Part shown: positions 34,866-37,622 of the stretch, piece by piece | Numbering within the stretch: the stretch's first letter is position 1 | Layout: each line of letters opens with the position of its first letter | Source: a bacterium | Lineage (GTDB): Bacteria; Patescibacteriota; Minisyncoccia; UBA6257; JAUSGH01 | DNA length: 37,622 nt | Reading direction: 5' to 3' | Assembly: GCA_030649055.1 (NCBI GenBank) | Contig: JAUSGH010000018.1 | Location: forward strand, 1-37,622 | Notes under the pieces: generated by a model | Told to the model about the DNA's origin: nothing | The model's input: the letters and a program-made list of their open reading frames with translations, nothing else | Database searches by the model: none | Program-made: the position numbers and the translations under genes

Positions 34866-34894
34866 AGTATAGCATATCGCTATAACTTTGTCAA
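34866..34894 (-). promoter_or_regulatory. Promoter of the lipoprotein operon
   Basis: On the minus strand: consensus TTGACA (34894-34889), a 17-base spacer and TATACT (34871-34866). Confidence 0.85.
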
Positions 34895-34977
34895 TAGTCG
34901 TCTTGCGGTATAAAAAAATACCCGTTACGCTGATGGTAATAAGAGGTGGCTTTAAGAATACGTTACGAGTTCTGCTT

Positions 34978-36645
34978 ATGATTTCCGCCACTGACGAAAA
35001 ATTGGCGCAGATGCGCCGCGAAGCGGAAGAACGCGATGCCGAGCGACGGGCTGCAACGCTTGGCTTGCGGTATATTGACCTTGCAAAGTCCCCATTCGAA
35101 GTTGATGCCTTGCGGTTGGTGCCCGAAGATGAGGCGCGCAGCGCAAAAGTTGCCCCCATTCATGCGAAAGGCAAACGCGTGACGCTTGCGGCAATTGACG
35201 GCTCTGTCGTCGCGGTGCAGACGATTGTGAAGCGGCTCACCGACGACGGTTACGCAGTGGAGGTCGTCATTGGTTCGCTTTCAGGCCTGCTCCATCTTTG
35301 GGAGTCCTATCAATATTTACCGAAAGAGGCGGTACAGATTACCGGAAAGATTGTGATTGTGGGAGACGAGCTCGCAAGAGCGCGCGCGTCATTTAAGGTA
35401 CTCGCTCATGTGCGCGACGCCCTTTTGGCGTATGACCCGAAAGCCGCGAGCATCGCCGAGGTGCTCAATGAGGTGCTTTTGGGCGCGCTGGTACAGCGCG
35501 CATCAGATATTCACATTGAACCGGGAGACGATCATGTTCGCCTGCGCTATCGCATTGACGGATTACTCCACGACATCATGTTGGATTTTCCGAAAGAACC
35601 CTATGCGCGGCTCATGTCCCGCATCAAACTGCTTTCCAAGTTGAAGCTCAATGTGACCTCTGAGCCACAAGATGGGCGTTTTTCGCTGGTGCTTCCAGAA
35701 GGAAAAGAAATTGAAATCCGCGTTTCGGTGATTCCCTCGGAATACGGCGAAACCGCGGTGCTCCGCGTGCTCTATCAGGACGCGCTCGTGATGAGCTTGG
35801 ATTCACTTGGGCTCCGCGCTGATGATCTGGTGATACTAGAAGAAGAGCTGCAGGCGCCGAACGGCATGATTTTAAACACCGGACCGACCGGCTCCGGCAA
35901 AACAACCACTCTTTACGTATTCTTGCGCCACAAGCAGAGCGCAGAAATGAAAATCATCACCATTGAGGATCCTATTGAGTATCATTTAGAAGGCATCGAG
36001 CAAACCGGAGTTGATCGCGAAGCGGGGTATGATTTTGCTTCCGGGTTGCACTCCATTATGCGGCAAGACCCCGATGTTATTTTAGTCGGTGAAATCAACG
36101 ATAAGGAAACCGCGGACATCGGCATCCAAGCGGCGCTTACGGGGCATCTCGTGTTCTCCACCATTCACGCGAACGACGCGCCCGGCGCCATTCCTCGGCT
36201 TATTGATTTGGGCGTGAAGCCAGCGAGCATAGGGCCGGCGCTAAACCTTGTGATTGCGCAACGGTTGCTGCGGCGCTTGTGCCCCGAGTGCCGCGTCTTG
36301 GCACCGGTAGGTGATGCCACAAAAACAAAAATTAAGGCATTTATCGCGGCGCTTCCGAAGCGTGTCCAAAAACCGGCGCTTGAAATGGCAGCGCTTTATG
36401 AAGCAAAGGGATGTGACGCGTGCGGGGGGATTGGCTACCGCGGCAGAGTCGGCTGTTTCGAGCTTTTCCGTGTGGACGACGCGGTGGAGAAGGCGATTAA
36501 TACCGATCCCAGCGAGGTGCGGCTACAGGAATTGGCGGCCGGGCAGGGAATGACGACGGTGCAACAGGACGGAATCCTCAAAGCCCTTCAAGGACTGACA
36601 ACGCTGGAGGAAGTGCAGTCGGCGACGGGCAAAATCAAGTGGTAG
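34978..36645 (+). CDS. PilB/GspE-type ATPase, type IV pilus assembly
   Basis: Cytoplasmic motor ATPase for type IV pilus extension or type II-like secretion (555 residues). The N-terminal GspE-N domain spans about 1-130. The core begins with LVQRASDIHIEPGDDHVRLR. Walker A is GPTGSGKTTTL (about 301-311), the Asp box ITIEDPIEYHLEG, Walker B DPDVILVGEI, and the His box GHLVFSTIHAND. The four cysteines of the zinc loop are present: CPEC (about 435) and CDAC (about 480). ATG 34978 was chosen because the earlier in-frame codons lie in the divergent promoter region; ATG 34933 is an alternative. No pilus partner gene lies in the window. Confidence 0.92.
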   Translation: MISATDEKLAQMRREAEERDAERRAATLGLRYIDLAKSPFEVDALRLVPEDEARSAKVAPIHAKGKRVTLAAIDGSVVAVQTIVKRLTDDGYAVEVVIGSLSGLLHLWESYQYLPKEAVQITGKIVIVGDELARARASFKVLAHVRDALLAYDPKAASIAEVLNEVLLGALVQRASDIHIEPGDDHVRLRYRIDGLLHDIMLDFPKEPYARLMSRIKLLSKLKLNVTSEPQDGRFSLVLPEGKEIEIRVSVIPSEYGETAVLRVLYQDALVMSLDSLGLRADDLVILEEELQAPNGMILNTGPTGSGKTTTLYVFLRHKQSAEMKIITIEDPIEYHLEGIEQTGVDREAGYDFASGLHSIMRQDPDVILVGEINDKETADIGIQAALTGHLVFSTIHANDAPGAIPRLIDLGVKPASIGPALNLVIAQRLLRRLCPECRVLAPVGDATKTKIKAFIAALPKRVQKPALEMAALYEAKGCDACGGIGYRGRVGCFELFRVDDAVEKAINTDPSEVRLQELAAGQGMTTVQQDGILKALQGLTTLEEVQSATGKIKW

Positions 36646-36650
36646 AGTGT

Positions 36651-36780
36651 TCACGAATATCGCGAATAGGGCGCTAAAAATAACGCGAATACAGAAAAGA
36701 AGATAGAAGTTATTTTAAATGGTGTTCTTCGGTGTTCGCATTCGCGTTATTAAGCCGAAATATTCGAGATATTCGTGAGT
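36651..36780. repeat. 130-bp palindromic repeat, copy 1
   Basis: Left arm (36651-36690) and right arm (36738-36780) are complementary (TCACGAATATCGCGAAT... / ...ATTCGAGATATTCGTGA). It is 90% identical, without gaps, to 37035-37164 (117 of 130 by direct count). Confidence 0.9.
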
Positions 36781-36796
36781 ACTAAACATTGACAAC

Positions 36797-36983
36797 AAAA
36801 AATCGCCTCCAATGATCTGTGGGCAAATCCTCGCGATAAATCGCGAGACAGATGTGAATAACTCTTTCAATTTAAAGTTAAAAGAGGTTAGAATGCCTTT
36901 GAGGAATGGCCAAGCCGAAACCGAGCCACCCGAACTAAAAGGGATTCCCTGCCCACAGATCATTTGAGGCGATTACACCAACT
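36797..36983 (-). ncRNA. Probable structured small RNA, about 187 nt
   Basis: A candidate RNA gene with its own promoter and terminator. The ends pair in a 25-bp stem with one mismatch (36950-36974 with 36801-36825), extended by AATC/GATT inside. The 3' arm runs straight into a T6 run (36802-36797), so the closing stem also serves as terminator. Inside are a 7-bp hairpin (36830-36836 with 36841-36847, loop of four) on the 3' side and a hairpin 36881-36890 with 36859-36867. The layout (long closing stem, open middle, small 3'-side hairpin, about 190 nt) is like 6S RNA, but I cannot match its sequence. No convincing reading frame lies inside. Confidence 0.65.
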
Positions 36984-36990
36984 AGCAGCC

Positions 36991-37019
36991 ATTCTAGCAT
37001 AGGGGTTTTGGTTTGTCAA
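36991..37019 (-). promoter_or_regulatory. Promoter of the structured RNA
   Basis: On the minus strand: consensus TTGACA (37019-37014), a 17-base spacer and TAGAAT (36996-36991) preceded by TGC, an extended -10. Predicted start near 36983, 9 bases before the closing stem of the RNA. Confidence 0.85.
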
Positions 37020-37034
37020 TAGGGCGTGTAGTTT

Positions 37035-37164
37035 TCACGAATATCGCGAATTGGGTGCTAAAAATAACGCGAATATAGGAAAAGGGATAAAAGTTATTTT
37101 AGATAGTGTTCTCCGGTGTCCGCATTCGCGTTATTAAGCCGAAACATTCGAGATATTCGTGAGT
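37035..37164. repeat. 130-bp palindromic repeat, copy 2
   Basis: Same length and orientation as copy 1 (36651-36780), with 13 substitutions and no gaps. It ends 9 bases before the ruvB start. The two copies bracket the small RNA gene and its promoter. Confidence 0.9.
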
Positions 37165-37173
37165 ATTAAATAT

Positions 37174-37622
37174 ATGAATAACGAAAAACAGCAACAACCG
37201 GACGAAATGACCCTTGACGCGGCGCTCCGGCCGACAACGTGGGGCGAATACATCGGTCAGGAGAAGACCAAGCGTAATTTGCGCGTCATGTTGGACGCTG
37301 CGAAGAAACGGAATGAGACGCCGGACCACCTGTTGTTCTACGGACAAGCGGGACTAGGCAAAACAACACTCGCATACCTTGTGGCAAAAGAATTGGGCGC
37401 GAATTTGCGCGTCACCTCCGGCCCGGCGTTGGAAAAAATGGGGGACGTCGCCGCCATTCTTTCCAATCTTGAAGCAAACGATATTCTGTTCATTGACGAA
37501 GTGCATCGGTTGAACCGGTTGATTGAAGAAGTGCTGTATCCTGCGATGGAAATGCGGAAACTGCACATGGTCATCGGCAAGGGGCCGGCGGCGCGGACGC
37601 TTTCCATTGATTTGCCGCCGTT
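37174..37622 (+). CDS. ruvB: Holliday junction helicase RuvB, 3' end cut off
   Basis: AAA+ motor that drives branch migration with RuvA. 149 residues are visible before the right edge. The start is followed by the family pattern [20 protein letters not shown], Walker [10 protein letters not shown] (about 58-66) and Walker [18 protein letters not shown] (about 103-119), with the expected YPAMEM. It is on the opposite strand from ruvC and about 3.9 kb away, separated by other genes, unlike the usual ruvCAB cluster. Its upstream side is the second 130-bp repeat; no clear Shine-Dalgarno site is seen. Confidence 0.95.

Follow-up and report, generated by a model that had tools for sequence, protein, structure and literature searches.

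The window, i.e. the whole stretch of 37,622 nucleotides that was analyzed, comes from a Candidate Phyla Radiation bacterium with a tiny genome and carries on its minus strand a gene for a structured RNA, and it is almost certain that a family of such stand-alone structured RNAs exists. We lean towards the reading that this is a new family of non-coding RNA of the class Paceibacteria (Minisyncoccia), which occupies the slot between ruvB and pilB and would act in trans within a ribonucleoprotein.

The structured non-coding RNA covers positions 36797..36983 (187 nt, minus strand), and this assignment is based on the stability of its fold, covariance model matches and covariation. Upstream of the RNA, the -35 box TTGACA (37014..37019, read from 37019 to 37014) is followed after a 17-nt spacer by an extended -10 element, TGC-TAGAAT (36991..36999), with TG at 36999-36998 and TAGAAT at 36996-36991. 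The predicted start of the RNA, 36983, was set 8 nt past the -10 element. The two ends of the RNA form closing arms of 25 nt each (36974-36950 and 36825-36801), and the 3' arm runs into T6 (36797..36802), which resembles the end of an intrinsic terminator. Thus, the promoter TTGACA-17-TAGAAT with an extended -10 (37019-36991) and the 25-bp closing stem with one mismatch, both reported in the preliminary description, were borne out; the arms are 96% complementary.

Both boxes are conserved upstream of the homologs described below. Promoter-like sites with at least 10 of the 12 consensus bases were found in 50 of 67 homologs, as compared with 4.1% of shuffled sequences, and most of them consist of TTGAC(A/T), a 17-nt spacing and, usually, TGn-TAnnnT. 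A T-run of at least 5 nt was present just past the closing stem in 38/67 homologs (19% of shuffles). A conserved reading frame was not found: the longest ORF on the sense strand measures 0-49 aa, depending on the homolog, and no sequence was shared among the ORFs inspected. The possibility of a small peptide was dropped, since the ORFs are not conserved among homologs. Given the conserved promoter and U-run and the divergent and convergent orientation of the neighbors, the RNA gene is predicted to be an independent transcript. Conservation of the RNA and of its promoter, together with covariation, supports the idea of a stable small RNA that has a promoter and a terminator of its own.

The minimum free energy of the predicted 187-nt RNA was -82.6 kcal/mol, whereas dinucleotide shuffles gave -47.4 +/- 4.1 kcal/mol (z = -8.65), and none of the 200 shuffles was as stable. 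The closing stem, P1, is formed by a 5' arm (36949..36974) and a 3' arm (36801..36826) that leads into T6. The inner part of the 5' arm, CUGUGGGC, is conserved in sequence, and this arm contains pairs detected in the tree-aware tests below. The preliminary description reported two more internal hairpins inside P1. Inner helices are indeed present; their number is three (P2, P3 and P4). P2 (36890..36948) is a long arm with a base of the GGAAU/AUUCU type, an internal loop (UUAG-N / UC) and strongly conserved pairs of the GGA/UCC type; its apex is CGGUUUCGGCUUGG in this RNA, and the consensus is UUGGC-UUCG-GCUGG. P3 (36862..36886, CUCUUUUAA...UUGAAAGAG) and P4 (36829..36848, the CUCGCGAU-UUAU-CGCGAG region) are hairpins. 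Two-sided changes were found in all eight modelled pairs of P3. P4 was assigned from the fold, and its sequence and size differ among homologs and vary between genera.

In 66 homologs, P1 is 19-30 bp long (median, 24.5 bp). P1 continues straight into P2, with 0-2 unpaired nucleotides on the 5' side of the junction in 57/66 homologs, and the unpaired sequence at the junction has a median of 14 nt. A three-way junction was predicted in 17/66 homologs; the family as a whole has a three- or four-way junction. The parts conserved in sequence are inner P1 (CUGnGGG), the base of P2, the UUAG/UC internal loop together with conserved GGA/UCC, and the apex (UUGG...CUGG). The sequence of P3, P4 and outer P1 is free to change provided that pairing holds. 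In homologs from other orders (L086, L088 and L109), the apical loop of P2 contains an extra helix, and the flanking UUGG-type motif is kept. Thus, the tetraloop of P2 itself is not the conserved element. In six homologs (L090, L106, L107, L110, L074 and L080), one more hairpin separates P1 from P2 on the 5' side.

By DNA search, related sequences with identities of about 67-77% were detected in other genera; seven of them fold as the RNA in the window does. Covariance models were built from eight sequences (R1) and from 62 sequences (R2). R1 matched 148/200 genomes of the same order, in 116 of 153 genera and nearly always as one copy. In the class Paceibacteria, other orders included, R2 matched 120 of 286 genomes at E <= 0.001, E-values of such custom-built models being rough. 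In a sample of 380 genomes from the phylum, R2 gave 11 matches, and only one of them, a weak one, lies outside the class (G501, L091). This match was rejected, having neither an evident promoter nor ruvB or pilB nor the matching fold. When 84,980 species genomes were scanned with a degenerate pattern for the apex of P2, 19 records matched. The records titled with a taxon belong to Harrisonbacteria, Colwellbacteria, Portnoybacteria, the Parcubacteria group or Paceibacterota; the others are titled "bacterium". The pattern was not found in viral contigs. About 26% of the genomes in the order had no R1 match, which may reflect divergence, draft gaps or real loss; therefore, the RNA may not be indispensable. 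One genome (G029) possesses a second, diverged copy (L066:2501-2615, C6:9854-9968) with no ruvB or pilB within about 2.5 kb on each side.

The preliminary description suggested that homologous spacers next to ruvB or pilB be examined for covariation, and both conservation and significant covariation were found in the relatives. In the eight-sequence alignment, 25 of 55 consensus pairs showed two-sided compensatory changes. In the 62-sequence alignment, 93% of the cells pair, against 77% in shuffles and at most 54% when the partners were slid by one to three columns, and two-sided changes occur in 41/46 pairs. The GG/CC pairs of P2 are kept in 61-62 of the 62 sequences, and its apical stem covaries. 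To allow for the fit of the 62-sequence alignment to the structure, two further tests were made against a null model that preserves the tree. The tree-aware test detected 13 significant pairs in the structure-fitted alignment, all within the structure. With a structure-blind MAFFT alignment of 69 sequences, 13 significant column pairs were also detected: 11 in P1, two in the apical stem of P2 and none elsewhere. Covariation of this kind in the aligned sequences is taken as direct evidence of selection on the RNA fold.

No family of Rfam 15 (4227 families) matched the RNA above its gathering score. At E <= 10, the sole match was a snoRNA on the wrong strand, under its cut-off. The proposed check against 6S RNA and all other families thus identified no family, 6S included. 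A literature search did not find this RNA described; since few subscription papers or preprints were covered, an earlier description is possible. raiA, OLE, ROOL and Ms1 are widespread structured RNAs of bacteria whose function is unknown or was established recently. The present RNA resembles them in that it is stand-alone and strongly structured and has no evident mRNA target. However, it differs from them in size, architecture and taxonomic range, and no Rfam model matches it. Of the two alternatives named at the outset, a new class or a diverged 6S RNA, the new class is the one that agrees with the conservation, the covariation, the kept promoter and the lack of an Rfam match.

The second alternative, that this RNA is the 6S RNA (SsrS) of the lineage, too diverged for Rfam and binding the sigma-70 holoenzyme as an open-promoter mimic, was examined in detail. 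The RNA is like 6S RNA in its length of about 190 nt, its long closing stem and its small 3'-side hairpins, as well as in its own promoter, single copy and housekeeping-like spread. However, no match to RF00013 was obtained at the gathering score or at E <= 10, and the conserved motifs are unrelated. 6S RNA requires an open strand on the 5' side, which is the template for pRNA. Because only 0-2 nucleotides are unpaired 5' of the junction in most homologs, the RNA has no open central bubble of the 6S type.

A weak RF00013 match in a relative (G049) led to a different RNA (L092/L117, G049 C8:13747-13863), of which homologs were collected (L118-L124 and L137-L156). This 6S-like RNA has a closing stem, a bubble open on both sides, a hairpin at the end (GGGAGACC...GGUCACCC) and a small CACCCACCUGG hairpin on the 3' side, with a terminator in several members. 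RF00013 matches two of the members weakly and only below threshold (28.7 and 26.5 bits). A covariance model of the 6S-like RNA (R3) matched 152/200 genomes of the order, nearly always once, and 124/200 genomes carry both RNAs. The model of neither RNA matches the loci of the other, and R3 had no match in the window. Thus, this RNA at another locus appears to be the 6S RNA of the order, which Rfam misses or scores below threshold. In the source genome, the R3 search of 23 contigs did not detect a 6S-like RNA, and this is a point in favor of the 6S alternative. The single weak R3 match there (L191:6826, E 0.31) was taken as spurious because its middle is missing and the region folds poorly. Since RF00013 does not match, the anatomy differs and a separate RNA with true 6S anatomy exists, the RNA in the window is not the 6S RNA of the order. 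The co-occurrence of both RNAs, judged from these model matches, already refutes orthology, and we regard the 6S identity as highly improbable.

We also considered whether the RNA belongs to another known class. RNase P RNA (C4:36122) and tmRNA (in C3, L186) were both found in the source genome away from the RNA locus, and these identities were therefore rejected. With RF00169, no SRP RNA was matched in the source genome and 60 relatives of the order (61 genomes), yet the same search was positive in 12 of 14 control genomes. This leaves room for an RNA that replaces or is the SRP RNA, and the present RNA shares with SRP RNA (4.5S) a compact, stand-alone form with paired 5' and 3' ends. However, RF00169 does not match it, and the helix 8 motif bound by Ffh (a GGAA-type loop with an AGG/AGCA symmetric loop) was not seen in the aligned homologs. 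Furthermore, tblastn searches with the E. coli Ffh and FtsY proteins gave nothing convincing in the source genome or in the single-contig genome G043. Therefore, the whole SRP appears to be lost, and on these searches the signal recognition particle seems lost in the order. An SRP role is unlikely because SRP RNA (61 genomes) and Ffh and FtsY (two genomes) were not found; as a reading of this RNA, it has very little probability. In the closed genome G043 (562 kb, 98% scanned), Rfam detected only rRNA, tRNAs, RNase P RNA, tmRNA and the L10 leader. The homolog of the RNA and the 6S-like RNA are present there besides, as a single copy each.

In the window, the RNA gene is flanked by the 5' part of ruvB (37159..37622, plus strand), which is divergent, and by a gene for a pilB/gspE-type ATPase (34888..36645, plus strand), which is convergent; both are conserved neighbors. 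In 62/70 loci of the order, the RNA gene has the same setting, with ruvB divergent and pilB convergent. Outside the order, pilB is downstream in 20/20 and ruvB is upstream in 18/20 accepted loci. This shared position shows, as far as gene order can, orthology and vertical descent; alone, it is no proof of a function at either gene. A cis-regulatory leader or riboswitch was rejected, since the upstream gene is divergent and the downstream gene convergent in these 62 loci and the RNA is not a 5' UTR. At one locus (L064:2501-2651, G002), the RNA lies within the ruvB-pilB interval in reversed orientation relative to both genes.

The kept slot gives room for a local role, such as an insulator, a terminator or an antisense regulator of pilB. 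However, terminators do not require a conserved internal loop and apex in P2, and the RNA has its own promoter. In addition, the distance to pilB is about 1.3 kb at three loci of the order (L074, L078 and L080), the RNA is inverted in L064, and the second copy in G029 has neither gene within about 2.5 kb on each side. Thus, a cis-acting element of the interval is improbable. The four-way junction next to ruvB also prompted the idea of a Holliday junction mimic for RuvB, which was dropped as speculation because 17/66 homologs fold with a three-way junction.

The distribution of conserved bases also bears on the mode of action. A discrete transcript with an intrinsic-terminator-like end would suit a regulatory RNA that acts by base pairing. 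However, little sequence at the junction is unpaired, most conserved bases reside in helices and internal loops, and no match to Hfq or CsrA was found in the two genomes searched. A base-pairing sRNA is thus quite improbable, and a protein-binding face fits the conservation pattern better than a base-pairing seed. Two related ideas were dropped as well. A decoy for CsrA through GGA was rejected because GGA is almost always paired and CsrA was not matched in the same two genomes. A mimic of the 16S rRNA 3' end (GGCUGG-N-CUCC) was rejected since the bases in between are not kept but change in concert with the other strand.

An action like that of 6S RNA may also arise from non-homologous RNA. 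The P1 duplex and the junction would then mimic a nucleic acid and dock onto RNA polymerase or a different enzyme that binds DNA, and the long conserved duplex beside a junction, the housekeeping-like distribution and the single copy agree with this. However, the RNA has neither a symmetric bubble nor an exposed template strand, and most genomes already have the 6S-like RNA. We therefore consider such a mimic unlikely.

For the ribonucleoprotein reading, which we prefer, we propose the following. A discrete, stable RNA would be made constitutively from its own sigma-70-type promoter and not as the leader of a neighboring gene. Since the long closing stem often runs into a U-run, it could terminate transcription. 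The RNA would fold into a compact three- or four-way junction with one conserved arm (P2) and two variable hairpins, and would act in trans as the RNA component of a ribonucleoprotein. The surface in contact with protein would comprise inner P1, the P1-P2 junction and the internal loop and apex of P2, and P3, P4 and outer P1 would need only to be helical.

The nearly constant single copy, class-wide presence and fixed position suggest a housekeeping-like RNA, and a fixed place across a whole class with genomes of 0.5-1 Mb suggests a core job. Tentatively, the RNA may be the RNA component of a ribonucleoprotein not described before, with a central cellular function peculiar to Paceibacteria and passed down vertically from an early stage of the class; these cells have kept RNase P, tmRNA and mostly the 6S-like RNA and have apparently lost SRP. 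New RNA classes that are single-copy and class-wide with covariation this strong are rare, and for the Candidate Phyla Radiation no such class was found in the literature searched. With the covariance models and the ruvB-pilB landmark, the RNA is easy to find in existing metatranscriptomes. As by-products, the analysis yielded an apparent 6S RNA of the lineage missed by Rfam and indications that SRP was lost.

Two copies of a 144-bp repeat, 89% alike and with inverted ends, lie on either side of the RNA gene (36646-36789 and 37030-37173). A search of the source genome with this repeat gave 26 matches, the majority covering half-units of about 45 bp. The flanking sequence is thus a MITE-like or palindromic intergenic repeat.
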